Assembly: GCA_024642665.1 (NCBI GenBank)
Contig: JAHEAR010000019.1
Span: 1-64,000, forward strand
Length of the DNA: 64,000 bases
Direction: 5' to 3'
DNA from: Bacteroidota bacterium
GTDB lineage: Bacteria > Bacteroidota > Bacteroidia > Chitinophagales > Saprospiraceae
Part shown: positions 2-23,572 of the stretch, piece by piece
How positions within the stretch are numbered: position 1 is the stretch's first letter
Layout of the letters: every line of letters begins with the position of its first letter
The notes under the pieces: model-generated
What the model was told of the DNA's origin: nothing
Seen by the model: only the letters and a program-made list of their open reading frames with translations
The model's database searches: none
Position numbers and translations under genes: made by a program

Positions 2-3000
2 TTTCCGTGGGTGTTTACGTATACAGTAGATCCCCCAACATTTACATTACCTGCAGCCGGTAATGCAACCGTAGCTTGTATTAGTGATGCACAAATAACT
101 CCGACACCACCTCCAACAGATGATTCATGTGGTAATCCGATAGTGCCAACCGGTCCGGTTGTAAGTGCTGATCCGGTTTGTTCAGGAGATAAAACATACA
201 CATGGGATTATACAGATTGTACCGGCACTTCTGCACAATGGATGTTTACATATACGGTAACTCCTCCGACTTTTACTATGCCTGCAGCAGGAGGATCAAC
301 AGTATCTTGTGTAAGTGATGCGCAAGTAATTCCAACGCCTCCGGCAACTAATAATTCATGTGGTGATCCAATGACGATCACAGGTCCTGTTGTAGGATCT
401 GATCCTATCTGTTCAGGTGATAAAACCTATACATGGGATTATACAGATTGTACGGGTACCTCTGCCCAATGGGTGTATACCTATACAGTTGATCCTTCCT
501 TCTTTACATTGCCTTCAGATGGTAGTTCAACAGTAGCTTGTATTAGTGATGCACAGGTAGTACCGACACCCCCAAATGTGACGAATTCGTGTGGTGACCC
601 ATTAACAATTGCAGGTCCTGTAGTTGGGGCAGATCCGATGTGTTCCGGAACGAAAACGTATACATGGGATTACACGAATTGCGATGGATCTACAGGCCCA
701 TGGGTATATACCTATACAATAGATCCACCAACATTTACATTACCGGCAAACGGTAGTTCAGCAGTGGCGTGTATCAGTGATGCACAGGCAGTTCCGGTTC
801 CCCCTGCTGTAACTAATTCGTGTGGTGATGCGATCACACCTACAGGTCCTGTCGTAGGAGCTGATCCTGTATGTTCAGGAGATAAAACATATACATGGAC
901 CTATACAGATTGTACAGGCACATCAATGGACTGGGTATATACGTATACAATAGATCCGCCAACATTTTCATTACCTGCTGCAGGTAGTTCAACAGTAGCT
1001 TGTATAAGTGATGCACAGAATGTTCCAACACCACCGGCAATAACAAATTCATGTAATGATGTGATTACACCAACAGGTCCTGTCATAAGCGCAGATCCAA
1101 TTTGTTCCGGAGATAAAACCTATACCTGGACCTATACAGATTGTACAGGGACTGCGATGGATTGGGTGTATACCTATACAGTCCAGCCCACTACTTTTAC
1201 ACTACCTGCCGATGGAGGTTCAACAGTCGCGTGTATTAGTGATGCGCAAGCGATTCCTGTTCCACCGGCAGTGATCAATTCTTGCGGTGATCCGGTTGTG
1301 CCAACAGGCCCAGTAGCAGGGGCTGATCCGATTTGTTCAGGTGATAAAACATATACCTATACGTATACCGATTGTTCCGGTACTGATTTTCCGTGGGTGT
1401 ATACTTATACCATAAACCCGCCAACTTTTACGCTTCCAGCAGATGGAAGTTCTACTGTGGCCTGTATCACGGATGCACAAGTTGTACCAACTGCGCCAGC
1501 AGTAGATGATTCATGTGGTAATCCGATAGTGCCAACCGGTCCGGTTGTAAGCGCTGATCCTGTTTGTTCAGGAGATAAAACATATACATGGAACTATACA
1601 GATTGCACCGGTACTTCTTCAGACTGGGTGTATACGTATATAGTTGATCCACCTACTTTCTCCTTGCCCGCTGATGGTAGTTCTGTTGTAGCGTGTGTAA
1701 CAGATGCACAAGTAGTTCCTACACCACCTGTTGTAAATAATTCGTGTGGTGTTGCCTTAACGATGACTGGCCCTGTCGTAGGAGCTGATCCTGTTTGTTC
1801 CGGTGATAAAACGTACACATGGGATTTTACAGATTGTACCGGAACATCCGGTCAATGGGTGTATACCTATACCGTTGATCCATCGACTTTTTCATTACCT
1901 GCTGATGGAGCTTCTAATGTAGCCTGCATCAGTGATGCACAAGTAGTTCCGACTCCTCCGGTGGTCAATAATTCATGTGGTGATCCGTTGACGATTTCAG
2001 GTCCCGTGGTTGGCCCTGATCCGGTTTGTTCGGGAGATAAAACGTATACCTGGGACTATATGAATTGTGATGGGTCTACAAGTCCCTGGGTGTATACTTA
2101 TACGATAGATCCACCAACATTTTCATTACCGGCAAATGGTAGTTCAACAGTGGCATGTATCAGTGATGCGCAGACTGTTCCAACACCTCCTGTCGTAACA
2201 AACTCTTGTGGAGATGGCATTACACCAACAGGTCCTGTGGTAGGAACCGATCCGGTTTGTTCAGGAGATAAAACATTTACCTGGACGTATACCGATTGTA
2301 CAGGGTCATCAATGGATTGGGTGTATACCTACACTATTGACCCACCAACATTTTCTCTTCCTGCAGATGATGCGTCTATCGTTGATTGTGTCAGTGATGC
2401 ACAAGCAGTTCCGACACCACCAATCGTTAACAATTCGTGTGGCGATCCAATTATTCCTACAGGTCCGGTCGTAGGCCCTGATCCGGTTTGTTCAGGAGAC
2501 AAAACATATACCTGGACATATACTGAATGTACCGGTACTGCTTTAGATTGGGTATATACCTATACTGTACTCCCTACAGTGTTTACACTACCTTCGGATG
2601 ACGGAACAAATGTAGTTTGTGTGAGCGATGCACAAGTAGAGCCAACACCACCTGTAGTCATTAATTTATGCGGTGATGTGGTTGTGCCTACAGGACCGGT
2701 GATAGGAGCTGATCCGGTTTGTTCGGGAGATAAAACTTACACATGGACGTATACTGATTGTGTTGGTAATACATTACCATGGGTGTACACGTATACAATT
2801 GATCCACCTACTTCTGTACTTCCTCCAGATGATGGTTCCACGGTAACATGTATTACCGATGCTCAGATAGTACCAGCACCACCCGCGGTCGATGATTCAT
2901 GTGGAAATCCGATCGTGCCTACCGGCCCGGTTGTAGGTGCAGATCCCGTTTGTTCCGGTGATAAAACTTACACATGGACGTATACTGATTGCACAGGAAC

Positions 3001-6000
3001 CTCTGCAGACTGGGTGTATACCTATACAGTAGATCCACCCACATTTATATTACCGGCTGATGATGGTTCCACAGTAGCTTGTGTGAGTGATGCACAGGTA
3101 GTCCCTATTCCACCAATAGTAAATAATTCATGCGGAGATCCATTAACATTATCCGGCCCAACCGTAAGCGCGGATCCGGTTTGTTCAGGTACTAAAACAT
3201 ATACATGGGATTATACAGATTGTACAGGAACATCCGGTCAATGGGTGTATACCTATACCGTAGATCCTTCATCATTTTCATTGCCGGCAGATGGTAGTTC
3301 AACAGTAGCTTGTATTAGTGATGCACAGGTAGTGCCGATTCCACCGGTAGTGACCAACTCATGTGGCGATCCATTGACGATTACCGGCCCTGTCGTGGGT
3401 CCTGATCCGGTTTGTTCGGGAGATAAAACTTATACCTGGGACTATACAAATTGTGATGGCTCAACAAGCCAATGGGTGTATACCTATACAATAGACCCTT
3501 CGACATTTACTTTACCTGCTGATGATGGTTCTTCAGTGGCCTGTATCAATGATGCACAGGTAGTTCCGACCCCTCCGGTTGTAAATGATTTATGTGGTGA
3601 TCCAATTCTGCCCACCGGTCCTGTCGTGGGTCCTGATCCGGTTTGTTCGGGAGATAAAACATATACCTGGACCTATACGGATTGTTCTGGTGCTTCAATG
3701 GATTGGGTGTATACTTACACAGTGGATCCGCCGACATTTGCTTTGCCGGCAGATGATGGATCCACAGTTGCCTGTATTACAGATGCTCAAACAGTGCCTG
3801 TACCACCGGTGGTCATAAATTCATGTGGTGATGCGATAGTTCCAACAGGTCCTGTGATTGGAGCAGATCCTGTTTGTTCAGGAACAAAAACATATACCTG
3901 GACCTATACGGATTGTGATGGAACTAATCTGGATTGGACGTATACGTATATCATTACCGGTGATACAGGTCCCGTTTTCACTGCACCTCCCGCTGATATC
4001 TCAGTGAATTGTGTGGCAGATGTGCCGCCCATGATTGACTTAAGTTATACAAATGATTGTAGCCCAGCAGGAATGGTCACTGGCATGGATTCAGGAATTA
4101 GTGGATCTTGTCCTGCGACTATTATCCGCACCTGGACTTTTACGGATGCTTGCGGGAATGTGGGAACTGTAACACAAAATATTACGATTGATGATACAAC
4201 CCCACCAACGGCTTCAGATCCCTCTACTTTTATAGTGGGCTTATGTAATGATCCTGTGCCTTCCCCTGATATCTCGGTGGTCACAGATGCTGCTGACAAT
4301 TGCAGTGCACCTGTCGTTGCATTTGATGCAGATGTGACAGATTTAGTAGGATGTACTGAAACAACGACCAGAACATTTACAGTAACGGATGCTTGCAATA
4401 ACAGTATAACGGTAACTCAGATTATTATCAGAACAGTCGACACCGACCCACCTGTATTTATTAATCCACCGGGTGACCTGATATTAGATTGTATTTCGCA
4501 GGTGCCTCCAATGGATCCATTGGATTATACCGATAACTGCAGCGGCCCGGGAACTATCGTTGGTACTGAAACGGGTCCAAGTGGCAATCCTTTAACGATT
4601 GTCAGAGAGTGGACGGTGACGGATGATTGTGGAAATACTGCAATCCATACGCAAACAATAACGATTACCGAAATACCCAATGAAACAAATTTAACACCTG
4701 TTTTGTGTGATCAAGATGTGTATACATTACCAGATGGTAATACGACAACCATTGGAGGAATGTATGGTCCGTATGTTTTTGTTGCAAACAATGGTTGTGA
4801 TTCGACTGTCAATGTGGATTTGACATTTATCCCGGAATCTACCGGAGAAGAATTATATACAGGATGTGAAGGCGATGGGTATTCGGTTATGGTCGGTGGA
4901 ACTATTTATGATGAATTTAATCCAATTGGAACGGAAACGATTTCCGGTAGCAATGGCTGTGATTCTGTTGTAACCATTAACCTGATTTTCAATATAAATT
5001 CTACCGGTCAGGAATTATACACCGGTTGCGAAGGAGATGGTTATAGTGTTATTGTGAATGGAACCATTTATGATGAGTTCAATAAGACAGGAACTGAAAC
5101 CTTAATCTCTTCAAATGGATGTGATTCTATTGTTACAATTGATTTAACATTTAATCCGCTGACGACTGGCACTGAATTGTATACAGGTTGTGAGGGCGAT
5201 GGCTATTCTGTAGTGGTCAATGGAACCACCTACGATCAATCAAACACGGATGGCGTAGAAGTTCTACCAGGTTCAAATGGCTGTGATTCAACGGTCACTG
5301 TGGCACTGGTATTTCAACCTGCTGGCACAGGCGAAGAATTATACAATGGTTGTGCTGGTGATGGATATAGTATTACAGTAAATGGTACAGTTTATAATGA
5401 AGGTAATCCTGATGGTGTCGAAACATTTCCAGGCTCCGGAGGGTGTGATTCCACGGTAACGATAGATTTAAATTTTAGTATCAATACAACGGGCGAAGAA
5501 TTATATACCGGTTGTGAAGGCGACGGCTATAGTGTCGTGGTCAATGGCACAACGTATGATGAGTTTAATAAAACAGGAACTGAAACTTTGATTTCTGCAA
5601 ATGGTTGTGACTCTACCGTCACTATTGATTTGACATTTAACCCACTGACCGCTGGAGTTGAACAGTATACGGGTTGTGAAGGCGATGGCTATTCAGTGGT
5701 AGTCAATGGAACTACCTATAATGAATCAAATACGGATGGAGTAGAAGTGCTAACGGGCATTAATGGTTGTGATTCAACAGTAACGATCACACTGGTATTC
5801 CAGCCTGCCGGTTCAGGGGAGGAATTGTATAGCGGATGTGAAGGGGATGGATATTTCATAGTGGTGAACGGTACCACGTATGATCAATTTAATCCAAATG
5901 GAACAGAAACGTTTCCTGGGCCAAACGGATGTGACTCTACAGTTACCATTGATCTGGATTTCGCTCCGGAGACTGCAGGGGAAGAATTATATACCGGATG

Positions 6001-9000
6001 TGAAGGGGATGGGTACTCAGTGGTGGTGAATGGAACCACTTATGATGAAAGCATGCCTTCCGGTACAGAAATTTTAATGGGTGCAAATGGTTGTGATTCG
6101 ACGGTAGCTATTATGCTTACTTTTATGTCAAATCTAACTGGTGAAGAGTTGTATACCGGATGTGAAGGCGATGGCTATTCAGTGGTTGTCAATGGAACCA
6201 TATATGATGAAAATAATCCTTCAGGAATGGAAACCATCACCGGACAAGGGTGTGATTCTGTGGTTACCATTGATCTGACTTTTGCGCCGGTTACGCCTGC
6301 TGCAATTACGCCTGCAGGACCTTTCTGCACATCAGCAGGAGTGATGACACTGACAGCAGTACCCGCAGGTGGCACCTGGTCAGGATCAGTATCCAGCAAT
6401 CAATTTGATCCCGCTGCATTAGGTACCGGATCTCATCAGGTAATCTATACTACATCATCCGGACCTTGTCAATCTGCTGATACAATATATATCGATGTGT
6501 ATGAGCTTGTCATAGATTGTGAAGTACTTGCAGATGAGTCTGCCCCCGGTGCATCTGATGGACGCGGACAAGTAACTATTACAGGAGGACAACCACCATA
6601 TACAATTAACTGGTCAGGGCCAATGAGTGGTTCAGGTGTGCTGGCTGCTGATGGTCCTTTTATGATCACCGGATTGTCTGGTGGCGTGTATACGATTGAA
6701 GTAGAAGATGCTACCGGTTGTATTGCAACATGCCAGTTTACTATTATGACGCCAGTTCCTTGCGATTTAACAATAGATGCACCTGTCATTATTGATGCAA
6801 CTTGTTCCGGCGTTAACAATGGTTCGATAACTATCAATGCAAGTGGTTCAATGCCACCATTTGAATATTCATTGGATGGCATTACATATGTTTCCAGTAA
6901 TGTTTTTGATATGTTGATGCCGGGCAACTATACAATTTATGTCCAGGATGCTGTCGGTTGTGAAGAAACTATGAATGTTGTTGTAGGCGTTGGCGCAGGA
7001 CCGGAGCTTGAACTGATTGAAGTCATTGACGCATCTTGCGGATTGGATAATGGATCAATAGAAGTAACAGCAAGTGGAGGTTCCGTACCGTATACATACT
7101 CTATCGATGGAAATATTTATGGATTGTCAGGACTATTCCCCGGACTTGGCGATGGAGAATACTTCATCTACCTTATTGACGATGTGGGTTGCACAGATAC
7201 CCTGGAGGTTCCTGTTTTTTCTGCAGGTTCACCGGTCATAGATGATATCATTATCACGGGCTCCTCATGTGGTCAATCCGACGGTAGCATTACAATTATT
7301 GCTTCCGGCGGAGTAGGGGTATTAATGTACTCTATCAATGGTGGTGGCAGCTTCCAGACGTCAAATGTATTTAACGGATTACCGGCCGGTGTTTACCCAA
7401 TTGTTGTTAAGGATGAAAGTGGCTGTCAAGTGACGGGGAGTGCTACGATCATGGATGTCGGTGGACCTGTAATTGATAATATAATTATTACGGCTACTTC
7501 ATGCAACACCTTTGATGGAACAGTGACGATCATGGCGACAGGCATTCCTCCATTGATGTATTCCCTAAATGGAACCGGTTACCAGACTTCAAATTTGTTT
7601 CAAAATTTACTTTCCGGCAATTATACAGTTTTCGTAAAAGATGGTAATGGTTGTATCGTTTCACAACCTATCACTGTCAATACGACCGATGGTCCGGTGA
7701 TCAATAGCATTACACCGACACACACTACTTGTGGAGAAGACAATGGAGAAATTTTTATTAATGTAAGTGGTGGAGCGCCGGACTATGAGTACTTCCTGAA
7801 TGGAACTAGTTATGGAAATACAAATTTAATTTCTGATTTACCATCCGGTGTGTATGTGATAGAAGTAGTTGATGAAAATGGATGTTCTGCGTCAGGTACC
7901 ACCACCATTAATACTTCAGTTTCTCCTGATTTTGATGTTTATATCACACCAGCTCATTGTGACATGGCCAACGGTCAGATAGAACTTGATGGGTTTGGTG
8001 GTCAGGCGCCCTATACCTATGCAATAATTCCGCCGGGGACGTTTACACCAATTTTTGTGTTCGTCAATTTGAAGTCTGACTTTTATACTGTTGCCATAAA
8101 AGATGCCAACGGCTGCATCCACGAAGAAGACGTCTTCCTTTGGGAAGCTCCTGGTCCGGCGATCACAAACATAGTTGTGACTAATCCTCCTTGCGGTGCG
8201 ACCACCGGGATGATTCAGGTGTTTTCGACCCCATCAACGAATATGACATATTCGAAAATGTTGCCTGCTTTCCAGGACTCCAATAAGTTTGTCAATGTGC
8301 TTCCGGGAACCTACACGATTACAGTCAAAGATGAGTTTGGTTGTACAGATACCGGAACGGCGACAGTAGTAGCTACACCAACACCGGATGTGACAGCAGT
8401 GGTGGTCAATACAGAATGTGGGTTGAGTACCGGTAGTATCACTGCCAGCGCTACCATGGGCGTGACCCCGTATACCTATGCCTTAGGTAATGGACCTTTC
8501 GGCGCAGGAAATGTATTTTCAAACTTACCAGCAGGCATCTACATAGTCAAAGCAATGGGAGCTAATGGATGTATTGATTCGCTGGAAGTTGAAGTTATTT
8601 CAGAGGGAACACAATATGGTGCTCTTGCAGATGCTATTTGCGAAGGAGATAGTTATATGATTGAGGGTGAAACTTTCACTGATGCCGGAGTCTATGATGT
8701 TCAGATTGCGGGAGGAGCGAGTGATGGATGTGATAGTATTTTAGTACTTACGCTTACGGTTGATCCATATGTACCGAAAGAAATATTTGATACGATTTGT
8801 CAGGGTGATATTTATCCTTACAATGGAACTGATTATACACAGGCAGGCGTCTATCTGCTGGATACCATTACTGCTGTTGTAGGATGTGATACACTATTGA
8901 CACTTAACCTGACGGTCAACCCACTTGAAGTAACATACCTCGATGAAACTATTTGTTTCAATGGCGTCTACACCATCAACGGAATGGACTATACTGTGGC

Positions 9001-11230
9001 AGGAGAATATCCTATCGATACGATACCTGCTGCCATTGGATGCGATTCAGTGCGCATTCTAAGATTAATGGTCGATCCTCTGGATGTATCTATCATACAA
9101 GCCTCTATCTGTGAAGGAGAGACCTATACGATTGGTGGTATGGATTACACCACAACAGGGTTCTATGTTATCGATACAGTGCCCGGTCCGGGTGGATGTG
9201 ATACGATCATCAATCTTGATCTGGTCGTCAATCCTTTACCTTCCGCAGATGCAGGAGCAGATATGACACTGGATTGTGCAATGCAGACGGTTACGCTGGA
9301 TGGAACAGCTACCGGAGGTCCGCCATTGTGGACAGGTCCGGGTATAGATGGTACCAATGAAAACTTACTCAACCCAGATGTAACCCAACCCGGATGGTAT
9401 ATTCTCTCGGTGACCAGCGGTGCTAATTGTAGTGATACAGATTCTGTATTTGTGGATCAGGATCCAGATGTAGTGATTGCCAATGCCGGTGTAGATGATT
9501 CGTTGAGTTGCGATGTGACGGAGATCACCTTACAAGCCAGCCCTGTAGGACCGGAGTATACCTATCAATGGACCGGACCTGGAATTGATGGTTCTAATGA
9601 AACGTTATCTAACCCGGTAGTGACCGTTGCAGGTACGTACACCCTGGTAGTAACAAATACAACATCAGGTTGTGTATCAGCTCCTGATGAGGTTGTCATT
9701 TCTGATATATCAGTAGTGTTGATAGCTATAATTCAGGACCCCAATAATTTTAATTGTTATATAGATACGGTTGATCTGAGTGCTGTGGGTTCATCCACCG
9801 GACCTAATATTGTATATGCATGGTTTAATAGTGATGGTGATTTAATATCATCATCACCAGGTTTTGAAATTACCTCGGGAGGTTTATTTGTACTGGTCGT
9901 TGAAGATACAATCAGTGGATGTTTTGGAAACGACTCTGTTTTTGTAAAAGATCTCAAGCAGTATCCAGCTGTCGAGGCTGGTCCTCCTCAGGTCATTGAC
10001 TGTAATAATCCAACCGCTATCTTAAACGAAGGAGCAACCAATGATAATGATAATGTAGTTTTCGAATGGGTAGGACCGGCAGGAGGAATTATAGGTCCTG
10101 ATACCTTAATATCGGCGACGGTTGGTTTGCCTGGTGAGTATATTCTCATCGCTATGGATTCAACTAATGGTTGTACAAATCGGGATACGGTGCAGGTCAC
10201 AGATCTTACAATACCGCCGGATGCTAATATAGATTTACTGGAAGAGATCACGTGTATTGATGAAACTGCATTGTTAGATATTGGTACGTCAAGTACGGGT
10301 CCCGATATTATTTATAGTTGGTCAGGTCCTGATCTGAATAATTTTATTTCGGAAACTTTAGAGACTTCCGTGCCCGGTGAATATTATCTGGATGTAGTGA
10401 ATCAAACTACCGGATGTTCTGCTCGCGATACTATAATACTTGATTTGCCTGATGTACCAGTGGGTATGATGGTGGATATTGTTATTCCAAATTGTGCAGG
10501 CGATGCTTCCGGCTCCATAACGGTTACGGATGTGACCGGTGGAACGCCTCCATTTATGTACTCGCTGGATGGAGGTCCGTTACAGACTTCACCTGTTTTT
10601 GAAGATCTTTTTGCAGGCAATTATTCTGTGGCGGTTGTAGATGCAAATGGCTGTACCTATGCGAATTCCTATACAATGGCGGATGGACAGATATTGTCGA
10701 TTGATATAGGTCCTGATATTGAACTGGAACTGGGTGATAGCATTATTCTATCGGCGGACATAAGTCTGCCGTGGAGTGAGATTGATTCGCTGGTTTGGAC
10801 ACCAATTGATTACCTGTCTTGTACACATTGTACAAACCCGGTATTATATGGTCTGAATAGTGCCACCATCACAGCAACCGTATATTCCGGGGGCTGTATT
10901 GACCAGGATATGTTGCAGGTCAGGGTGGATGTTGATGCTGATATTTATATACCGAATGTCTTCTCTCCAAATGATGACAATATAAATGACTGGGTAACGG
11001 TATACACAGATGATCGGGTCAAAAGAGTAGTCTATTTCGAGATTTTTGATCGATGGGGTAACCAGGTTTTTGTGGGCAAAAATTTTGCTCCAAATGATCC
11101 CCAATTGGGTTGGAATGGTTCCTTTAAAGGAAAAAGAATGAACCCTGCTGTTTTTGCTTATACCGCTCGTGTTGAGCTGCTGAATGGTTCAACTATCGAT
11201 CGAAAAGGTGATATCACCTTGCTTCGATAA
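2..11230 (+). CDS. Giant repeat-built surface protein, 5' end outside window, T9SS type B tail
   Basis: The frame is open at the left edge (it enters as F-P-W-V), so no start codon or signal peptide is visible; about 3740 residues lie inside. Modules in order: 17 tandem 77-residue Ig/HYR-like units with four Cys each (32-3958); three HYR-like domains with DACGN or DDCGN signatures (about 3959-4670); one divergent and nine regular 54-residue units (to 6292); about ten SprB-type units (about 6500-8600, plus one near 10450-10680); four short CEGD/CQGD-type units (about 8610-9240); five PKD/Ig-like units (about 9240-10440); and a gliding-motility C-terminal domain starting near 10950 with YIPNVFSPNDDN and ending GDITLLR. 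That last domain is the type B sorting signal of the type IX secretion system, so the protein should be exported to the cell surface or medium. The role is inferred as adhesin or matrix protein, SprB-like in style. No enzyme domain was seen. Confidence 0.92.
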   Translation, partial: FPWVFTYTVDPPTFTLPAAGNATVACISDAQITPTPPPTDDSCGNPIVPTGPVVSADPVCSGDKTYTWDYTDCTGTSAQWMFTYTVTPPTFTMPAAGGSTVSCVSDAQVIPTPPATNNSCGDPMTITGPVVGSDPICSGDKTYTWDYTDCTGTSAQWVYTYTVDPSFFTLPSDGSSTVACISDAQVVPTPPNVTNSCGDPLTIAGPVVGADPMCSGTKTYTWDYTNCDGSTGPWVYTYTIDPPTFTLPANGSSAVACISDAQAVPVPPAVTNSCGDAITPTGPVVGADPVCSGDKTYTWTYTDCTGTSMDWVYTYTIDPPTFSLPAAGSSTVACISDAQNVPTPPAITNSCNDVITPTGPVISADPICSGDKTYTWTYTDCTGTAMDWVYTYTVQPTTFTLPADGGSTVACISDAQAIPVPPAVINSCGDPVVPTGPVAGADPICSGDKTYTYTYTDCSGTDFPWVYTYTINPPTFTLPADGSSTVACITDAQVVPTAPAVDDSCGNPIVPTGPVVSADPVCSGDKTYTWNYTDCTGTSSDWVYTYIVDPPTFSLPADGSSVVACVTDAQVVPTPPVVNNSCGVALTMTGPVVGADPVCSGDKTYTWDFTDCTGTSGQWVYTYTVDPSTFSLPADGASNVACISDAQVVPTPPVVNNSCGDPLTISGPVVGPDPVCSGDKTYTWDYMNCDGSTSPWVYTYTIDPPTFSLPANGSSTVACISDAQTVPTPPVVTNSCGDGITPTGPVVGTDPVCSGDKTFTWTYTDCTGSSMDWVYTYTIDPPTFSLPADDASIVDCVSDAQAVPTPPIVNNSCGDPIIPTGPVVGPDPVCSGDKTYTWTYTECTGTALDWVYTYTVLPTVFTLPSDDGTNVVCVSDAQVEPTPPVVINLCGDVVVPTGPVIGADPVCSGDKTYTWTYTDCVGNTLPWVYTYTIDPPTSVLPPDDGSTVTCITDAQIVPAPPAVDDSCGNPIVPTGPVVGADPVCSGDKTYTWTYTDCTGTSADWVYTYTVDPPTFILPADDGSTVACVSDAQVVPIPPIVNNSCGDPLTLSGPTVSADPVCSGTKTYTWDYTDCTGTSGQWVYTYTVDPSSFSLPADGSSTVACISDAQVVPIPPVVTNSCGDPLTITGPVVGPDPVCSGDKTYTWDYTNCDGSTSQWVYTYTIDPSTFTLPADDGSSVACINDAQVVPTPPVVNDLCGDPILPTGPVVGPDPVCSGDKTYTWTYTDCSGASMDWVYTYTVDPPTFALPADDGSTVACITDAQTVPVPPVVINSCGDAIVPTGPVIGADPVCSGTKTYTWTYTDCDGTNLDWTYTYIITGDTGPVFTAPPADISVNCVADVPPMIDLSYTNDCSPAGMVTGMDSGISGSCPATIIRTWTFTDACGNVGTVTQNITIDDTTPPTASDPSTFIVGLCNDPVPSPDISVVTDAADNCSAPVVAFDADVTDLVGCTETTTRTFTVTDACNNSITVTQIIIRTVDTDPPVFINPPGDLILDCISQVPPMDPLDYTDNCSGPGTIVGTETGPSGNPLTIVREWTVTDDCGNTAIHTQTITITEIPNETNLTPVLCDQDVYTLPDGNTTTIGGMYGPYVFVANNGCDSTVNVDLTFIPESTGEELYTGCEGDGYSVMVGGTIYDEFNPIGTETISGSNGCDSVVTINLIFNINSTGQELYTGCEGDGYSVIVNGTIYDEFNKTGTETLISSNGCDSIVTIDLTFNPLTTGTELYTGCEGDGYSVVVNGTTYDQSNTDGVEVLPGSNGCDSTVTVALVFQPAGTGEELYNGCAGDGYSITVNGTVYNEGNPDGVETFPGSGGCDSTVTIDLNFSINTTGEELYTGCEGDGYSVVVNGTTYDEFNKTGTETLISANGCDSTVTIDLTFNPLTAGVEQYTGCEGDGYSVVVNGTTYNESNTDGVEVLTGINGCDSTVTITLVFQPAGSGEELYSGCEGDGYFIVVNGTTYDQFNPNGTETFPGPNGCDSTVTIDLDFAPETAGEELYTGCEGDGYSVVVNGTTYDESMPSGTEILMGANGCDSTVAIMLTFMSNLTGEELYTGCEGDGYSVVVNGTIYDENNPSGMETITGQGCDSVVTIDLTFAPVTPAAITPAGPFCTSAGVMTLTAVPAGGTWSGSVSSNQFDPAALGTGSHQVIYTTSSGPCQSADTIYIDVYELVIDCEVLADESAPGASDGRGQVTITGGQPPYTINWSGPMSGSGVLAADGPFMITGLSGGVYTIEVEDATGCIATCQFTIMTPVPCDLTIDAPVIIDATCSGVNNGSITINASGSMPPFEYSLDGITYVSSNVFDMLMPGNYTIYVQDAVGCEETMNVVVGVGAGPELELIEVIDASCGLDNGSIEVTASGGSVPYTYSIDGNIYGLSGLFPGLGDGEYFIYLIDDVGCTDTLEVPVFSAGSPVIDDIIITGSSCGQSDGSITIIASGGVGVLMYSINGGGSFQTSNVFNGLPAGVYPIVVKDESGCQVTGSATIMDVGGPVIDNIIITATSCNTFDGTVTIMATGIPPLMYSLNGTGYQTSNLFQNLLSGNYTVFVKDGNGCIVSQPITVNTTDGPVINSITPTHTTCGEDNGEIFINVSGGAPDYEYFLNGTSYGNTNLISDLPSGVYVIEVVDENGCSASGTTTINTSVSPDFDVYITPAHCDMANGQIELDGFGGQAPYTYAIIPPGTFTPIFVFVNLKSDFYTVAIKDANGCIHEEDVFLWEAPGPAITNIVVTNPPCGATTGMIQVFSTPSTNMTYSKMLPAFQDSNKFVNVLPGTYTITVKDEFGCTDTGTATVVATPTPDVTAVVVNTECGLSTGSITASATMGVTPYTYALGNGPFGAGNVFSNLPAGIYIVKAMGANGCIDSLEVEVISEGTQYGALADAICEGDSYMIEGETFTDAGVYDVQIAGGASDGCDSILVLTLTVDPYVPKEIFDTICQGDIYPYNGTDYTQAGVYLLDTITAVVGCDTLLTLNLTVNPLEVTYLDETICFNGVYTINGMDYTVAGEYPIDTIPAAIGCDSVRILRLMVDPLDVSIIQASICEGETYTIGGMDYTTTGFYVIDTVPGPGGCDTIINLDLVVNPLPSADAGADMTLDCAMQTVTLDGTATGGPPLWTGPGIDGTNENLLNPDVTQPGWYILSVTSGANCSDTDSVFVDQDPDVVIANAGVDDSLSCDVTEITLQASPVGPEYTYQWTGPGIDGSNETLSNPVVTVAGTYTLVVTNTTSGCVSAPDEVVISDISVVLIAIIQDPNNFNCYIDTVDLSAVGSSTGPNIVYAWFNSDGDLISSSPGFEITSGGLFVLVVEDTISGCFGNDSVFVKDLKQYPAVEAGPPQVIDCNNPTAILNEGATNDNDNVVFEWVGPAGGIIGPDTLISATVGLPGEYILIAMDSTNGCTNRDTVQVTDLTIPPDANIDLLEEITCIDETALLDIGTSSTGPDIIYSWSGPDLNNFISETLETSVPGEYYLDVVNQTTGCSARDTIILDLPDVPVGMMVDIVIPNCAGDASGSITVTDVTGGTPPFMYSLDGGPLQTSPVFEDLFAGNYSVAVVDANGCTYANSYTMADGQILSIDIGPDIELELGDSIILSADISLPWSEIDSLVWTPIDYLSCTHCTNPVLYGLNSATITATVYSGGCIDQDMLQVRVDVDADIYIPNVFSPNDDNINDWVTVYTDDRVKRVVYFEIFDRWGNQVFVGKNFAPNDPQLGWNGSFKGKRMNPAVFAYTARVELLNGSTIDRKGDITLLR
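32..3958 (+). repeat. 17 tandem 231-bp (77-residue) repeats with a 1386-bp super-period
   Basis: Units start at the PPTF-like motif and run 17 x 231 bp with no insertion or deletion. Each unit carries four Cys, in the contexts VACISDA, NSCGD, PVCSGDKTYTW and TDCTGT. Units 1, 7 and 13 share DDSCGNPIVPTGPVV. Units 3, 9 and 15 share NCDGST. Units 2, 8 and 14 end in a DPS variant. Units 4, 10 and 16 share SMDW. The true period is therefore six units. The GATGATTCATG anchor lies at 119, 1505 and 2891, exactly 1386 bases apart. Confidence 0.95.
4838..6292 (+). repeat. Nine tandem 162-bp (54-residue) repeats with a three-unit super-period
   Basis: Eight units are exactly 162 bp and the ninth is 159 bp. 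The core motifs are ELYTGCEGDGYSVVVNGT and NGCDSTVTIDLTF. Unit endings cycle FNIN, FNPL, FQPA, FSIN, FNPL, FQPA, and the EFNKTGTETLIS variant recurs 486 bases later (5072 and 5558), so blocks of three units were duplicated. A divergent unit precedes the array (about 4676-4837). Two Cys per unit could form a disulfide. Confidence 0.92.
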
Positions 11231-11497: not shown

Positions 11498-14400
11498 ATG
11501 AACTTAAAGAACCGACTGAACATCATCTCCGGTCTTCTGCTATTACTAGTCTTTTCATCAGGACGAGTAGTTGCTGAAGGTATCAAGGAGTTGGCCCCCG
11601 CATCCAGTGATTCAGTAATGCTTCACACCAATGCGTCCGGCTTTGGAAATTTTGCTTCCTACCTGAGTTTTGGTACAGCCTCAAGCTTGAATTTAACCAT
11701 TACAGATGCTGTAAATGACTCTGTATATATTGGTTTATCCGGAGAAGCAGATGATTTTGGAAATATTTCCGGCCCAGCCACCTACTCATTCAGGATTCTT
11801 GATCCAAATGGGGTCGTCGTATTTGGGCCATATGTCATTGGTTCCGCTAATGATAATGCCACCTCATGGGCTTTGGCTGCCAATGGTCCGGATGTAAACG
11901 GCATGGGTGGTTATAGTACCAATACAGGTTCATTTCCATATTCCCGATTCAAACCGACTATGACGGGTGATTATGTCATCCAGTTTGATGATGGAGGACC
12001 AAACCTGATAGCCAATATTCTTTTTTATGACTTTACCGTAAGAAACGGAGGTGCCGTGCAGACCGGACGCCTTTGGTCCAGGAACTGGGCATTGCGGACT
12101 CCTCCAAGAAGCCCAAATACACCGCCTGAATGTCAGTATGATCGGGATTTCAATGGTGTATTCTATTCCTACACCATGGATGGTTTCGTCTCTCGAATAG
12201 ATTTTGCAAATTCAGGATTTCAGGGACTTTCATTTACTGTTTCTTTTGGTGACAGAGGACCCGGCGATACAGGAGATGTTATCGAAGACAGACGCTCCGT
12301 CAATAATATGAATGCCACGCAAAATAATGCTGATCATATGGTATTCCTTAATGACCCGGATAATACGCAGTTTCCATCCTCTTCCATGCAGTGTGGCGAT
12401 GTCGCCTTATTAAATGTTAGCTGTGAAGCTCCGGATAGTTTTTGTATTAATATAGGGGTCACGCAACCGGGTCAGGTCGAAGTTGTACTTGATTTTGTGA
12501 ATAATGGAATCTATGATTTAGATACCACCGATGTTCTTTTAGCTATGTTTTTTACATCAGCCGATACTTTGTGTATGCCCTGGAATGGATTAAAAGGCGA
12601 TGGAACACCAATCGAATTTGGTGAGCCGGTTCCAGTATTTGTGCGATATTCTCAAGGGGTACAGCATTATGCCGGATTTGATGTTGAGTTTCTTAAAAAC
12701 GGATTTTGCGTTCAGACGATCAGACCAATTTGTCCCGGGATGGCGACAAATTTACTCTATTGGGATGATAGCGATATTACGGATGATGTCAATACCGTGA
12801 CGATAGATGAGGGCGATCCGGGAACCGGCCAGCCAAAAATTGAGATAAATGGTTGTACTTGTGGTATGGGAGGTTGTCGTACATGGGATAATTTCCAGGT
12901 AGGTGATCCACCGACCGGTACTTGTGTAGGTACGCCATTTGGATACGGAGAGAATGCCACCCTGAACACCTGGTGGTTTGCAAGTACCATTATGGTGAGT
13001 GGTTCTAATTTGCCATTGGCTCAGGTTTTAATTACCGGAGACAGTGTCATTTGTAATGGCGACAGCACCATATTTACGGCTCAATTTGCTCCGGATACAA
13101 TTGATTATATTTTTGAATGGACGGGACCAGGTGGATTTATGGCTGATACAGAAACCACCGGTTATATCAGTACCCCGGGTACATATTATGTGACTATTAC
13201 CGATACCTTGACCAATTGCTCTGCTGTGGATTCAGCGATTTTGATTGTTAATGACAATCCAACCACCTCAGTCAGTTTTATGTGCCTGGGCGGCAATCAG
13301 CAAAATGCAGATGTAGATTTGACAGTCAGTGGCGGTCAACCCCCTTATACTTATTTATGGTCCAATGGAGCGATGACAGAAGATCTTTCTGATGTTGGTC
13401 CGGGAGAATATACAGTGATCGTAACAGATGATAATGGCTGTATGGCCTTTGATACCGTTTTGGTTCAGGCTTGTTGTTCATTAGTGGTCGTATGTCCGGT
13501 CATGGATGGCGGTACCTTTGCGTGTATTACAGATGTTCCTGCCATTGATACAAATATTGTTCAGGTAAATGAATACTGTGATAATTTTACAGTCTCCGTG
13601 ATGGAAACGGATAATGGAGGTAGCGGTTGCCCTGGGGATGAATTAGTTATCACCAGAACATTTACCGTTATGGATGATGCAGGCAACTCACAGAGTTGTG
13701 TGCAAGCCTTAACTGTTTCTGATAACGTGGCTCCAACATTGAATTGTCCTGTTAATGTAACGATTGAGTGTTTGGATAGCTCAGCTCCCGGAAATACAGG
13801 CACGGCTACAGCTTCAGATAATTGTGATGCTTCGCCTATTGTTTCCTTTAGTGATGCTACCATATCCGGCGCTTGTCCTCAGGAATTTACAATCAATCGA
13901 ACATGGACGGCTACGGACAATTGTGGCAATACAAGTACGTGTCTGCAAACTATATCAGTGGATGACAGCATGGCTCCGGGCATCAACTGTCCTGCAAATA
14001 TTACGATTACTTGTACCGAAAGTACATTGCCCGCAAATACAGGTACACCATCCGGCACTGATGTATGTGATGGGGCTCCGATATTTTCATTTAGTGATGG
14101 TATCGTCGGTGGCGCTTGTCCTCAGGAATCAGTCATAACACGAACATGGACGGTTATGGATGCCTGTGGAAATTCAAATACATGTATTCAGACTATTACG
14201 GTAGAAGATAATCAAGCACCGACAATTAATTGTCCGGCTAATTTGACCATCGAATGTTCAGAGAGTACGTTGCCCGCTAACACAGGAACTGCTTCCGCCA
14301 TGGATAATTGTGATGGTGCACCGGTGACATCTGTTTTGAGTAATAATGTTATTCCGGGTGCTTGTCCACAAGAAAGTATAATTCAAAGAACATGGGTAGC

Positions 14401-17400
14401 AACTGATGCTTGCGGAAATTCAAGCACATGTTTACAGATAATCACAGTGCAGGATAATACACCTCCTGTGATTACATGTCCTGCCAATACAACAATAGAA
14501 TGTTCTGATAGTACTATACCTGCCAATACAGGTACAGCTACTGCCTCAGATAATTGTGATGGCGCTCCGGTGATTGCCTTCAGTGATATCACGCTTGGTG
14601 GCGGATGCCCTCAGGAATTAACTATCACCAGAACATGGACCGCCACTGATGCTTGTGGAAACTCAACCGGCTGTGTTCAGACAATCTCTATTGTAGATAC
14701 CGAATCACCTGTCATTACATGTCCTGCAAATATTACTGTACAATGTACAGACAGTACAGCTCCGGCTGATTTAGGTTCGGCTACAGCAGTTGACTGTGAT
14801 CCGAATCCGATCATTGGTTTTAGTGACAACGTTACAGGTGGAGCATGTCCACAGGAAAGCACAATCACCAGAACATGGACCGCCACTGATGCTTGCGGAA
14901 ATTCAAGCACATGCATTCAAACGATTAATGTAGAAGATAGCGTAGCTCCCACCATCACCTGCCCACCGAATGTGACCATGGAATGTAGTGCAGGTACGGA
15001 TCCGGGTGATACAGGAACTGCTTCAGCAACGGATAATTGCGATTCAGCACCAAATATTAGTTTTGAAGATTTAACCATTGCCGGTGCATGTCCTCAGGGT
15101 ATAAATATTACCCGGACGTGGATTGCAACCGATGCCTGTGGTAATTCAAGTACCTGTACGCAAATCATTCTGCTGGATGATATTCAGGGACCCACTATTA
15201 CCTGTCCTGCTGATGTAACCATTGAATGTACAGATAGTACTGCACCTGCAAATACTGGTTTAGCAACGGCCACTGATAATTGTGATGGATCGCCAATGAT
15301 TGAGTTTAGTGATGTTACACTGTCAGGAAGTTGTCCGCAGGCGAGTTCTATCAGCAGAACCTGGGTAGCAACAGATGCTTGTGGCAATTCAAGCACTTGT
15401 ATCCAAATTATATCTATAGAAGATAGCACCGCTCCGGTCATTACTTGTCCGGCAAACCTTACGATTGGTTGTACCGATAGTACGTTACCAGCCGATACCG
15501 GCTCGCCGACAGCGGTTGATAATTGTGATGCAGCACCTTCATTTGATTTCAGTGATGTAACCATAGGAGGTAACTGTCCTCAGGATATGATCATAACCAG
15601 AACATGGATCGCTACAGATGCCTGTGGGAATTCATCATCCTGCGATCAAATTATTTCTATTGAAGATAATGATGCACCAATAATATCATGTCCTGGTGAT
15701 GTGACCATAGAATGTACTGAAAGTTTTGATCCGGAGTCAACTGGATTTGCTTCAGCGACTGATTGTGATCCTGATCCTATTATTACCTGGAATGATGTCA
15801 CCTTAAGTGGTGCTTGTGCACAGGAAAGAACAATTGTGAGAACATGGACGGCTACAGATGCTTGTGGAAATGCAAGTACCTGTGCTCAAAATATTTTCGT
15901 GGATGATAGTCAGGGACCAACAGTCTCTTGTCCACCGGACATCACTATCAATTGTCCGGAAAGTACAGCGCCCGCAAATACCGGTACAGCATCTGCAACG
16001 GACAATTGTGATGGTATGCCATCCATTGACTTTAGTGATGCTATAGTCCCTGGTGCTTGTACGGAATCATTTACGATACTGCGTACCTGGATGGCCACTG
16101 ATGGATGTGGTAATACCGGAATCTGTATACAGACTATATCAGTAAATGATATTTCCGCACCTTCAATTACCTGCCCTGCAGGTGTCACGGTATCTTGTAC
16201 AGATGACATCCCCCCGGTCAATACAGCAGGAATAGGCACGAGTGATGATTGTGGTGGTCAGGTGACCGTTACGCATATTGGAGATGTTATTTCTAATCAA
16301 ACATGTGCCAATAGATATACGGTTACACGCACCTATCAGGCTACGGATGATTGCGGTAATTCTGCAACTTGTCAGCAAATCATCATCGTTGATGATCAAA
16401 CTGCACCTGTTGCCATTTGTCAGGATATACTGATTGATTTTGCTTCAGGAACTGAAGTAACGATTACGCCGGAGCAGATCAATAATGGAAGTTTTGATAA
16501 CTGCGGCGGTGTTACCTTGAGTTTGTCTCAAACTATTTTTAATTGTGATGAATTTATTCAGACAGGGTCTGTGCCGGTAGTTTTGACCGTCACGGATGAT
16601 TGTGGAAATTCCTCCACCTGTCAGGCTCAGGTAATGGGTACCGGTGGTTTACTTGAAATTACCTGCCCAAGTGATATTATTGTTTATCTCGGTCCCGGTG
16701 AGTGTACTGCTTTTGTAAGTTATACCGTCACAGCGGATGCCATTTGCGGAGGTACTCCGGTTCTGATGCAAATCGATACTACAGGTTTGACATCAGGTGA
16801 TGCATTCTCAATTGGTACAACCATTCAGACCTGGATTGCTACGAATAATTCTGATACAGCTGAGTGTTCTTTCAATATCACTGTTGTGGAATATGATGGA
16901 CCAATCTTTCTGGCGTGTAATGATACAGTCAATGTAAGTGTGGATAATTTTTGTGAAGGACACATTTTCACGGATATGATATTGGAAGGTGATCAGTATG
17001 GCTGTTATGACGATTATATTATTACGATTGATAGCATAGGCACTGACACAGGTTGGATTGTATTCTCTGCGTTTGATTTAGTCAATGGATTTTATCACGT
17101 AACGATCACTGATCCTGATACGGATAATTCATGCTGGGGTGTCATTCGCCTCGAAGATAAAATTCCACCGCAGATTATATGTGCTTGTCCGGAAGGGGTC
17201 GATGGCGCTGATACATGTCAGATTTCATGTCTCGAAGTTGATTTATTATTGGACGGTCAAATACCAGCCAACTTATATCCTGAGATTATTGACAATTGCG
17301 GATACACATTGGAAGTATCCAATATCGAGGATAATGGTGAAGGCTGTGGTGATGGAGTCGTGATCGTAAGTTGGTTAGTGACTGACAATTCCGGTTTTAC

Positions 17401-20400
17401 TGCCTCGTGTGATCAGATGTTTAATGTTATTCCTCTATCAACGGATAGTATTGTATATCCACCAAATTATGTTGGACCATGTGGCAGTAGTAGTTTGCCG
17501 GATGTAACTGGTTGGCCCACAATAGGCGGTTATGATATCACAGATCAGGCTGGAACTTGTAATCTTTTCCTTGGCTACTGGGATAAGCCACTTGATGATT
17601 GTGGAGGAGGAAGTAAGATACTCCGTACCTGGACAGTTTTAGATTGGTGTACGCAGGAGTTAGTAGAAGGAAATCAGGTTATTAAATTAAGTGATACAGA
17701 GGGACCTGTACTAACTTGTCCGGCTGATTTGAGTGTTGGAACAGATTTTTGGTTTTGCCATGCCAATGTAAGTGTGCCTAAGCCACAAGCCGAGGATAAT
17801 TGTAGCGATATAGTCAACTATACGCTCTATTCAGCCGATGGAATAATTGTACAGTTTGGAAATAATTTTGTGATCAATGAGCTTGGATTGGGTGCTCACC
17901 TTGTAACCTGGGTAGTAGATGATCTTTGTGGAAATAGTTCATCATGTTCTTTTACGATTACGGTGGTGGATAATGTTGTTCCCGTGGTCAATTGTGACTC
18001 ACATACAATTGTTGGCTTAACCAATGATGGACCCGGTGGTATTACCCTTGTACCTGCCTCTGTGTTTGATGATGGAAGTTATGATAATTGTGGTCCTGTG
18101 ACGTTCCGAGCAAGAAGAATGGATAGTTGTATCGACTTTGATTGGACTACCGAAGGTGCTTGTATCGATGATATACCTGGCGGAATACCTCCTGTCAATA
18201 GTCGTGACCGCGGAACAGTTTTCCGCCCTTGCGTACCATTCGCATGTTGCGATGTACCGAGAGTTGGATCCAGAGGAGAGAAGACGGTTATGGTTGAACT
18301 GGAAGTGACGGATGCTGCAGGAAATGTAAATTATTGTATGGTTGAAGTGGATGTTCAGGATAAAATTTCACCGATAGTGGAATGTTTGCCGGATATCATT
18401 GTCAGCTGTTCATTCTGGTATCCAATAGAAGAAGGCACCTTTAGAGATGCTGCTGGAAACTTGAATGGAAATCTGGATGAAGATCCTTTGAGTGCATACT
18501 TTGGTAATATGTACGATGATTTGTTAAATGACGGAGATCAATCCGTTCGTCAGCCTATCGTTGTGTATGATCCTGAAAATCCAAATTACAGTCAACCACA
18601 CGTTTGGGGAATTGATGGATGGGCCAAAGACAATTGCTTCTCTGACTTGGAAGTCCGTGTCACCCAATATGATGTATGTGCGGGTGATAATCTGCCAAGC
18701 AATGCCCCTCCGGGAGCCGTTAAACTAATTGAAAGAAGATTTACCGCAAGAGATAATCAACAAGGGTTTACACCCGGGGTTTGTACCCAGAGAATTTGGG
18801 TCGTGGATTTCAATCCGTTTTATATTTCGGACAAAAATTGTAATAACCAGGACACGAAAGATGGTGTCAAATGGCCATGTGATGTCTTGATTGATAATTG
18901 CCCTGATGATTTGGGTAACACTGGTGAGCCACAGATATTCTCTGATGCATGTAATTTGATTGGCGTCACCTATGTAGACTCACGTTTTGAATTTTCCGAA
19001 GGTGGAGCTTGTTATAAGATTCTTAGAGAGTGGAAGGTCATTGACTGGTGTCAGTATAATAGTTCTACCGGTCAGGGGCTGTGGTCCTATACGCAGGTGA
19101 TTAAGGTGCACGATGATGAAGGTCCGGAATTCCTGGCTTGTCCGCAACAACCGATAGTGCTGTGTGTGGAGGACGATGGTATAAGACTACCGGCTTCGAA
19201 TCAGGCATTCCTGGGAGAAAGTGATCCACTATCCAGTAGTTGCAGTGTCCACGTAACACTTACACAACCAATCCGCGAATCCTGTGATGGAGATGTGTCG
19301 TTTGATGTTAAATTATATCCATTTAACGGACCTGATTATGTTTTAGTCAAACCAAAAACATTTGTTCAGCTGGATGACAATCACGAAGCGAACCTTGTCT
19401 TTAACAGTGAGGAAAGTCCAATTCAGGAAATGAGAAGAAATGGTATTCCATACAATGATATCTATTGTGGTGATTACCACAGAATATTGTGGAGTGTGGA
19501 GGATGGTTGCGGTAATTGGTCACATTGCGAGTACCTATTCCGATTGGAGGATTGTAAGCAACCAAGTCCGGTATGCATTCAGGGATTGAGCACCGTCGTC
19601 ATGCCGATAGGTTGTGAGGTCACCCTTTGGGCGAAGGACTTCAATGCTTCCAGTACGGATGATTGTACCCCATCGGCAGAATTGTTATATAGTTTCAGTG
19701 GAGATGCCTATGAGCCAAGCAGAACCTTTAATTCAACCAATATTCCAGCCTTTGGCGTCGAAGTTCCAATTGATATTTGGGTTGCTGATGGCGGTACGGA
19801 TGACAACTGTAATGGCGTAGTCAGCTGGAATGAAAGAAACAAGGATTTCTGCACCACCACCATTGTATTTACAGACAACAGTGGAAACTGTGATCATGGT
19901 GGAAGTATTCTGTACGAAGGTGAAATTCTAACTTACGATCACAAATCAGTAGAGGCTGTAAATGTTTCTCTGGTCAATAACAATGAGGTGATTTATTCGA
20001 TGAATACCGCTGATAATGGAAAGTATTTATTAGTTGTTCCTCAGGTGGATGGGCAGCGCTACGAGATTACGCCGAAGCGTTCTGATCAGCATAGGAATGG
20101 TGTGAGTACGTTAGACCTTGTACGCATTCAGAAGCATTTGTTAGGAAAAGAACTTTTTGATTCGCCCTATCAATACATTGCCGCAGATGCTAATAATAAT
20201 GAGCAAATCAGTGCCATCGACCTGATTGAAATCAGAAAACTGATACTTGGTCTTTACACTGAGTTCCCGGATAATGACAGCTGGAGATTTGTTGATGCTG
20301 GATTCCAAATGCCAAATCAGCAACATCCATGGCCTTTCGAGGAGGTGATCAATATGCAGTATGATGGAACATCCTATAGTGGTCTTGATTTTGTTGCGGT

Positions 20401-21130: not shown

Positions 21131-21156
21131 TAAAGTTTTGGTAAAACTTGATGAAG

Positions 21157-21189
21157 AAAGGAGTCTCGGAGAAATTCGAGGCTCCTTTT
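21157..21189 (+). terminator. Rho-independent terminator of the HYR protein gene
   Basis: A 12-bp stem (AAAGGAGTCTCG pairing with CGAGGCTCCTTT, one G-U pair) with an 8-base loop is followed by TTATTT. It lies 27 bp after the stop codon of the giant gene. Confidence 0.85.
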
Positions 21190-21249
21190 ATTTGAGGGGA
21201 CCCTATTGTTTAGTTCAGACAAAATCAACCAAAATTTGTCAAGGCCTGC

Positions 21250-21277
21250 TTGCTAAGGTATAATAAGGTTAAATTTG
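21250..21277 (+). promoter_or_regulatory. Bacteroidota-type promoter, TTG-N17-TAAATTTG
   Basis: TTG at 21250-21252 is followed after 17 bases by TAAATTTG at 21270-21277, a full match to the known Bacteroidota -33/-7 consensus (TTG, TAnnTTTG). The next ATG is only 8 bases downstream, so the transcript may be leaderless. Confidence 0.6.
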
Positions 21278-21284
21278 CCAAAGT

Positions 21285-22343
21285 ATGTATGATATAATAC
21301 TAGCCTTTATTACTGCCTTGCTGTTAGTGTATCTTGCGATACCCAGTATTATCAATATTGCCAGAGTCAAGCATTTATATGATGAGCCTGATCACCGAAA
21401 GTCCCATGACGAGGCAGTACCAACGCTGGGTGGGGTAGCCATTTTTGCCGGGGTTATATTTAGTATCATACTTTGGACACCATTCGATGTCTTTGGCGAT
21501 CTGCAATATATCCTGTGTTCTTTCATTATCATTTTCCTGATCGGGGCTAAAGATGATATTCTACCGATGTCTCCTGTTCGAAAGTTGATGGGGCAGATCT
21601 TTGCTTGTTTTATTCTGGTATTTAAGGCTCAGGTAGTGCTCACCAGTATGTATGGCATCTTTGGTATTTATGATATTCCGGAGATTCCTTCCATCCTGCT
21701 TTCGATGTTTACGATACTGGTCATCATCAACGCCTTTAATCTGTTGGATGGCATCAACGGGCTTACAGGGAGTATTGCAACGCTGATATCAATCACGCTG
21801 GGCACCTGGTTTTTTCTGGTGGATCGAACGGATCTTGCCATTATTGCCTTTTCGCTTGCCGGCGCCACTATCGCTTTTTTAAGATATAATATCACCCCTG
21901 CACGAATCTTTATGGGGGATACCGGCTCCATGCTGATCGGACTTGTCTCCGCTATTCTGGTCATTGAGTTTATTGAAATTCATGCGGAGATACCGGGATC
22001 TCCTTATGCTTTTACAGCAGTGCCTGCCGTAGCCGTTGGGATTTTGATATTACCACTCTTTGATACCCTCAGAGTTTTTATATTTCGTTTAATACGGGGC
22101 AAATCACCGATGAGTGCGGATCGCAATCACATCCATCATCTATTGCTTGATGCTGGGCTTTCACACATGCAGGCTACCAGCGTGTTGTTATTGGTCAATC
22201 TGGCTTTCATTTTTTTTGTCGTCTTTTTTCAAAGTTTGGGAAATCTGAATTTGCTATTGATCATACTGCTCATTGCAACTTTGCTCACGGCTATTCCCTA
22301 TCTTATTACTAAATGGAAGAAGCCACCTTCGCTGGAGCTGTAA
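21285..22343 (+). CDS. WecA/MraY-family undecaprenyl-phosphate sugar-1-phosphate transferase
   Basis: 352 residues, about ten or eleven membrane segments. Members of this family transfer a HexNAc-1-phosphate from a UDP-sugar to undecaprenyl phosphate, the first membrane step of O-antigen, capsule or teichoic-type polymer synthesis. Visible signatures: HRKSHDEAVPTLGG near residues 37-50, the Asp-Asp pair in GAKDDILP (90-91), the NAFNLLDGINGL segment (149-160), FMGDTGS, and the HIHHLLLDAGL loop, which points to the WecA/TagO branch rather than MraY. The exact sugar cannot be told. It stands alone between a terminator upstream and a repeat-filled gap. The start has a promoter -7 box immediately in front. 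Confidence 0.9.
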   Translation: MYDIILAFITALLLVYLAIPSIINIARVKHLYDEPDHRKSHDEAVPTLGGVAIFAGVIFSIILWTPFDVFGDLQYILCSFIIIFLIGAKDDILPMSPVRKLMGQIFACFILVFKAQVVLTSMYGIFGIYDIPEIPSILLSMFTILVIINAFNLLDGINGLTGSIATLISITLGTWFFLVDRTDLAIIAFSLAGATIAFLRYNITPARIFMGDTGSMLIGLVSAILVIEFIEIHAEIPGSPYAFTAVPAVAVGILILPLFDTLRVFIFRLIRGKSPMSADRNHIHHLLLDAGLSHMQATSVLLLVNLAFIFFVVFFQSLGNLNLLLIILLIATLLTAIPYLITKWKKPPSLEL

Positions 22344-22727
22344 GGCATAGAGCGTAGGGCATGGCGCATGGGGGTAGGGCATGTAGTATGTCGGAGCGCA
22401 GCGTTTATCCCGTACATCCGACTGAGACTGAAGGTTGTGCTGGGGCAGATCATGTCCGCCAGGCGTAAGTGTGAGGTGAGATGTGACTTAGTGATTTGGT
22501 GATGTGCGATAGGTGATGGACAAGGAATGAGAGGTTGAGTCAGTCGCGTGTCGTGTATCGCGTGTCGAAAAGTCTCAGGTCTTTTTTAGTGGTGAGTTGT
22601 GAATAGTAAGTAGAATCAGATATATCGCGCGTCGAAAAGTTGCCAATCCTCGATAAACTAATCTAAGGTCTATGGTCCAAAAGTCCAAGGTCCAAGGTCC
22701 AAGGTCCAAAAGTCTCGGGTCTTTTTT
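22344..22727. repeat. Intergenic word-repeat tract after the WecA-like gene
   Basis: No gene. The tract begins at the first base after the stop codon with heptads such as GCATAGA, GCGTAGG and GCATGGG (about 22346-22384). Degenerate octads of the GTGATTTG type follow (about 22471-22520), then CGCGTGTCG words (about 22538-22570 and 22625-22640), and four to five copies of GGTCCAA (about 22674-22713) ending next to the convergent desaturase stop. No clear hairpin terminator was seen between the two convergent genes. Confidence 0.75.
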
Positions 22728-23474: not shown

Positions 23475-23510
23475 AATCAATCTTTTTTAAATAAATTCTG
23501 ATATAGGGTA

Positions 23511-23539
23511 CAAAGATATTTCAATCCAAGCGATTTCAA
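23511..23539 (-). promoter_or_regulatory. Promoter of the desaturase gene, TTG-N18-TATCTTTG
   Basis: Read on the minus strand, TTG (23539-23537) is followed after 18 bases by TATCTTTG (23518-23511), matching the Bacteroidota -33/-7 consensus. This leaves a leader of about 30 bases before the ATG at 23474. Confidence 0.65.
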
Positions 23540-23572
23540 TGTATTAACTATGCAAATAAAAGACGAAGTAGT

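Follow-up and report, generated by a model that had tools for sequence, protein, structure and literature searches.

Why should the domains of a bacterial surface-protein stalk recur in an ordered block of six, and are the copies alike through fresh copying or through constraint on the protein? The question is raised by the start of a contig from a Saprospiraceae genome (Bacteroidota bacterium, assembly GCA_024642665.1, contig JAHEAR010000019.1, positions 1 to 64,000; the whole 64,000-nucleotide stretch is called the window here). A giant surface-protein open frame of 3742 residues (2..11230, on the plus strand like every feature given below) has lost its 5′ end at the contig edge. It carries an array of 17 complete 77-residue HYR_4C units of 231 bp apiece (8..3934), in which six types, T1-T6, follow one another in sequence: units 1-6 (8..1393) run from T1 to T6, units 7-12 (1394..2779) do so again, and units 13-17 (2780..3934) run from T1 to T5. 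As base 1 of the window is also base 1 of its contig, the array is truncated on its 5′ side. Cut every 231 bases starting at base 8, all 17 units are in phase (8-3934), so that the constant unit length claimed in an earlier note on this DNA holds; Tandem Repeats Finder (TRF) gives a period of 231 and 16.9 copies (8-3916). The anchor GATGATTCATG stands at 119, 1505 and 2891, as that note had it. Its span for the array, 32-3958, describes a real array, but read in that phase it takes in 24 bases at its end that are part of a different domain, the one after the array. Four cysteine columns are invariant across the 17 units. The residues FP precede unit 1 and DFP ends unit 6, while unit 12 ends instead in LP.

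The six-unit order is measurable at both levels. In the window, mean DNA identity between units reaches 76.3% at lag 6 and 75.5% at lag 12, while the remaining 14 lags give 68.0-72.5%; for protein the two means are 79.7% and 77.4%, and those of the remaining lags 65.6-72.9%. With unit order shuffled 5000 times, the six-period contrast has p = 0.0002 for DNA and protein alike. Identity at 231-bp offsets had been named beforehand as a check, and it has the peak at six-unit spacing that variants recurring every six units would produce. Autocorrelation peaks at multiples of k units, the criterion for a super-repeat, occur with k = 6 for the window array as well as for that of the congener introduced next. 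A trimer nested in the hexamer was rejected: by type-to-type identity the pairing (1,4)(2,5)(3,6) ranks sixth of 15 in the window, second in the congener and third across species.

The genus sample comprises two genomes, one for each of two species, and the array is present in both. In the congener (genome G001, contig C65), an open stretch of 6917 residues holds 48 units (14544 to 25631), the first of them divergent; counted from the end, they make eight T6-T1-T2-T3-T4-T5 blocks. Profile-based counts are 18 units for the window and 49 for the congener, as they include a divergent post-array domain. The 231-bp step is kept in both species, four of seven congener type-6 units also end in FP, and congener identity peaks at lags 6, 12 and 18 (protein six-period p = 0.0002). 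Aligned with each other, the two arrays are 79.8% identical in protein in the right phase and 72.0-74.5% in the other five (p = 0.0002). Both run into a similar following domain, and everything past the array is 76.2% identical between window protein and congener (2431 aligned residues). A search of the window genome for the missing 5′ part of the gene placed 17 of 17 unit hits on the window contig; with the congener N-terminal part (749 amino acids) as query, 0 of 63 hits in that genome reached query residues 1-314.

Trees place the types and the last blocks across the species boundary. In a tree of 64 units from window and congener, with few columns per unit, all nine T6 units form one clade (support 100/94) and 10 of 11 T3 units stand together (100/98). 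T1, T2, T4 and T5 are mixed, yet tighter than expected from permuted labels, of which 0-6 in 500 gave an equally low value. A second tree used nine blocks, labelled W for window units and G for G001 units. Here the terminal block of the window (unit 12 together with units 13-17, W12-17) groups with G43-48 (99/99), and four other tested partners were rejected by the approximately unbiased (AU) test (p-AU 0.001-0.005). Because the congener keeps the same order and register, and type 6 is a single clade across species, we infer that the six-domain block order is older than the species split. The blocks lying between the ends probably differ by whole six-unit blocks. Simple colinearity of the 17 window units with the last 17 of the congener is weakly rejected for block W06-11 (p-AU 0.029). 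Growth of the array by duplication of a six-unit block, which the earlier note had proposed, gains support from the shared types and register, the T6 clade and the orthologous last blocks.

Silent sites give the age of the copies. At positions with the same residue, codon agreement is 43-48% for G001, where 39-40% is expected at random, and 52-59% for the window, where 45-47% is. Congener units with at least 90% shared residues have only 46-48% of codons in common, compared with 75-98% in 14 other arrays. For the 79 G001 pairs at this residue identity, the proportion of differing silent sites (pS) is 0.68 and dN/dS about 0.03, against pS of 0.04-0.37 and dN/dS of 0.06-0.43 in the 14 other arrays that hold such pairs. 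At the extreme, one G001 pair is identical at 77 of 77 residues and shares 192 of 231 bases. The 80-90% identity bin is not unique to G001, as four pairs from locus L080 have pS 0.67 against 0.69 in G001. Between congener blocks pS is 0.62-0.73 and between species 0.66-0.74; Jukes-Cantor (JC)-corrected dS is close to saturation and serves as a rough guide only. The congener array and its flanks are equally even in codon usage (random codon identity 38.9% vs 38.6 and 37.3%); the window array is more biased than its flank (44.8 vs 39.3%). Protein likeness among the congener units coexists with nearly saturated silent sites, and we therefore judge it to be old and not due to recent copying; on this evidence the congener copies have a long history and are kept alike by constraint at the protein level.

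The window looks as if it retains some later exchange, of a local kind. Codon identity there has a six-unit period (p = 0.0004, lags 6 and 12) that does not reach significance in the congener (p = 0.09). Exact runs of at least 30 bp exceed those of within-column codon shuffles in both species (7 vs 1.5 in the window, 27 vs 7.5 in the congener). Active avoidance of shared codons is ruled out by this excess, where a deficit of long exact runs would be expected. A tract of unit 1 (118..205) is near-identical to 1504-1591 in unit 7 and exact over 48 bp; over the 88 bases from 118, units 1 and 7 have 3 mismatches and units 1 and 13 have 11, in agreement with the near-identity of units 1 and 7 and the greater distance of unit 13 noticed earlier. 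This tract would be a local conversion or a late copy. For the later homogenisation that had been suggested, support extends to short tracts only; synonymous sites are near saturation.

We put the probability of an ancient multi-domain block duplication, kept in register under strong protein-level constraint, at roughly 0.8. Duplications, through recombination or slippage, would each have copied a complete six-domain block, some earlier than the species split and some at about the time of it. Afterwards the order would have changed little under strong purifying selection on the protein, while silent sites drifted to near saturation and conversion tracts, where they arose, stayed short. Changes in block number probably involved complete blocks in the interior of the array, with the end block retained. 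Several observations weigh against this account. The unit tree has few columns and separates T1, T2, T4 and T5 poorly. In the block tree, W06-11 has more than one acceptable place: the best tree joins it weakly to the terminal pair (69/93), and of the five partners tested the AU test keeps G07-12 (p-AU 0.365) and G13-18 (0.241) and rejects G25-30 (0.015), G37-42 (0.029) and G43-48 (0.0006). W06-11 and W12-17 have pS 0.59, lower than every between-species block pair, which leaves a non-trivial share to late exchange in the window. The sample consists of one genome per species and a window array that is cut, and six-unit steps within a species lie outside it. At the level of function, the domains found include none for binding, and the window frame lacks the N-terminal end of the protein.

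The stalk itself is predicted to be a string of Ig/cadherin-like HYR_4C domains. Structure prediction of six joined units, a check named in advance, was made with AlphaFold2 on the segment of units 7-12 with 23 aligned sequences; with a mean predicted local distance difference test (pLDDT) score of 88.3 and a predicted TM-score (pTM) of 0.48, the model is reliable for each domain by itself but not for the way in which the domains are set against one another. In Foldseek, the best matches by E-value are cadherin-type strings, an RTX adhesin extender is within the first ten, and other Ig-like strings occur; as the query TM is low (0.13-0.30 over the best 50 matches), the result is used for fold class only. 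No solved structure of a sequence relative was found at E <= 0.01. As the best Pfam stretch opens at unit column 12, each domain proper would begin there and end at column 7 of the following unit, and columns 8-11 would be linker. Of the 77 columns, 12 (7, 10, 38, 45, 47, 67, 70, 72 and 74-77) are informative of type at p <= 0.02 in window and congener alike. Placed on the strands of the model, these columns would map to the linker, to the turn that leads into the last strand or its immediate surroundings, and to the segment 38-47, positions compatible with type-specific domain contacts.

Could six be a structural requirement, with six domains per helical turn or per functional stalk module and the register itself selected? 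A register without slip over 17 + 47 units, while silent sites neared saturation, would fit such a requirement, and so would the setting of columns 7 and 10 at the inter-domain linker and of columns 67-77 within or next to the turn that leads into the last strand. The inter-domain orientation of the model is of low confidence (pTM 0.48), and related arrays count against the requirement. Other HYR_4C arrays were found with a profile of the units described here, their spacing being mostly about 75-82 residues. In a first period test on 27 arrays of at least eight units, six had p < 0.03. The period is six for the window and G001, and four for L087, L104, L081 and L097, Flavobacteriaceae loci with Algibacter and Flavivirga among them. 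In a second test on 30 arrays, with periods up to 12 and two multiples, three had p < 0.05 (G001, the window and L087), with L097 at p = 0.054. The two tests partly disagree, three of the four period-four arrays having p = 0.05-0.22 in the second, and those calls rest on the first test together with the visible type order. Period five is seen in G078, a genome of the window's family, where a 43-unit stretch has protein peaks at lags 5, 10, 15 and 20 (88-90% vs 82-84%, p = 0.0005); this sub-array was picked after inspection, and the whole 74-unit array has p = 0.12. Neither test finds a period in the 36 units of L077. Most period-less arrays are short (8-14 units), and for them the absence of a period is weak evidence. 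The second array of the window protein, described below, peaks at three. Period thus differs by lineage and array (3, 4, 5, 6), which speaks against a general six-fold rule; a local one would still fit. The general rule is disfavoured by these comparisons, and with it the six-fold or helical period once offered as a reason for the array; six as a structural requirement is, in our judgement, unlikely.

A young, length-variable stalk of the Periscope type, with copies kept alike through ongoing homologous recombination, is less probable again. The excess of long exact runs in both species, the near-identity of units 1 and 7 over 88 bases, and the window's codon-identity peaks at lags 6 and 12 are what such a stalk would leave behind. 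However, between-unit codon identity is little above random in both species, and the congener pS of 0.68 among units at least 90% alike in residues stands far from the values of 0.04-0.37 in 14 other arrays. An origin of the six-unit signal in faulty assembly or in chance similarity of units is hardly credible: the contig ends inside the array and the congener is a metagenome assembly, but p = 0.0002 is reached in each of two separate assemblies with matching register, and units differ at 24-32% of bases by lag, beyond simple misassembly. The block duplication under constraint, which we prefer, might be extended to a bolder proposal that we regard as speculative and rather improbable, though less so than the structural requirement. 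Each block of six domains would then act as one functional unit, a bacterial parallel to the super-repeats of titin and nebulin: each position would have its own conserved surface, stalk length would be block-quantised, and selection on register, as opposed to recent copying, would have preserved the order while silent sites came close to saturation; more widely, HYR_4C super-repeats would be lineage-specific, periods of four, five and six having been seen.

The related arrays also have features of their own. In G078 contig C92 (L143, L144), the 74-unit HYR_4C array is part of an 8775-residue open frame; period five appears in mid-array and a different sub-array comes after it. In L077 (6998-14389), units are exactly 77 residues long and the variants look mosaic, with no block period. 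Among 658 HYR_4C units, 28 have lost cysteine 1 alone, and 18 of these have a following unit within reach; 17 of the 18 following units lose only cysteine 2, mainly in L097, L104, L081, L089, L087, L113, L095, L093 and L085. Such complementary cysteine loss suggests an inter-domain disulfide.

Beyond the array, the domain content of the window protein points to the cell surface. In the 3742-residue frame, Pfam gives HYR_4C (PF23237) 1372.9 bits (cut-off 27) in 20 stretches, and SprB repeats (PF13573) eight stretches, the best at 7028..7111. Divergent cysteine-bearing domains follow the array (3935..4680). A second array of nine 54-residue repeats comes next (4844..6301; TRF period 486), with repeats that begin GEELYTGCEGDGY and nine copies in the congener too; identity peaks at lag 3 in the two species (71% vs 58-64%, p = 0.026, and 82% vs 69-76%, p = 0.008), and none of the displayed best Pfam stretches falls on it. 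At the C-terminus lies a type IX secretion (type B) sorting domain (10946..11221), matched by CHU_C in Pfam (40.5 bits, cut-off 27) and TIGR04131 in NCBIfam (35.7 bits, cut-off 35). Given this sorting domain, the protein is probably a type IX-secreted, adhesin-like giant surface protein, and its domain content suggests a long stalk that extends reach.

The neighbouring gene (11498..21130) encodes a second giant HYR_4C protein of 3210 amino acids with a type A type IX sorting tail. Its homologue adjoins the congener array gene, with 85% identity over 2270 columns, where the comparison stops at the end of the fetched stretch. SprB-type gliding adhesins have sprF-type or gliding genes as neighbours. 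For sprF-type and gliding families, no Pfam match at E <= 0.001 was found in the ten frames scanned downstream (21285-32902), the upstream side being off the contig. Elsewhere in the window, a 368-residue frame (33458-34564) has lysine/alanine-rich short tandem repeats (periods 15, 48, 81 and 96) and a histone-H1-like look, and short tandem repeats of 7 and 8 bp occur at 46304-46573 and 52118-52159.

Domain super-repeats are best known from eukaryotic giants, e.g., titin and nebulin. A survey of 24 proteomes reports that domain repeats often expand several domains at once, seven for nebulin, and that they are far commoner in eukaryotes (PMC1553488), and the titin A-band is described as having super-repeats with position-specific conservation (PMC10665226). 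Like the window array, nebulin and titin have repeats of repeats, duplicated in blocks and often in mid-array (PMC1553488; PMC10665226). Unlike it, they belong to eukaryotic muscle, match a filament and are built of other domain families; no partner of matching period is known for the array described here. Among the matches listed from the open-licence literature, no paper concerned domain super-repeats in bacterial adhesin stalks, and none HYR_4C by name. Nested periods occur in another bacterial repeat, the IRREKO leucine-rich repeat (LRR), where the period is two (PMC2946307). HycP, a 250-kDa protein of the bacterium Clostridium cellulolyticum, contains 23 modules of the hyaline repeat (HYR) type and differs in having a carbohydrate-binding module (PMC3723904). 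SprB of Flavobacterium johnsoniae, from the same phylum, is a giant surface protein of 6497 amino acids that has SprB repeats in common with the window protein (PMC9870892). However, SprB is a gliding adhesin, and the ten frames scanned downstream of the window protein gave no gliding family. Periscope proteins (SasG, Rib and others) are likewise long repetitive bacterial surface stalks, and the very high coding identity of their repeats is thought to permit length change by recombination (PMC9704523). The arrays of window and congener depart from that high DNA identity, with means of about 68-78% by lag and silent sites near saturation. As its congener units are alike without fresh copying, the array helps to separate two explanations that are usually confounded in repeat proteins. 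Other Bacteroidota HYR_4C stalks also have tandem domains and in some cases super-repeats. These differ in having periods of four, five or none, and in that their copies at least 90% alike are younger by silent sites; the lineages with four- or five-unit blocks offer a natural comparison for what sets block size.

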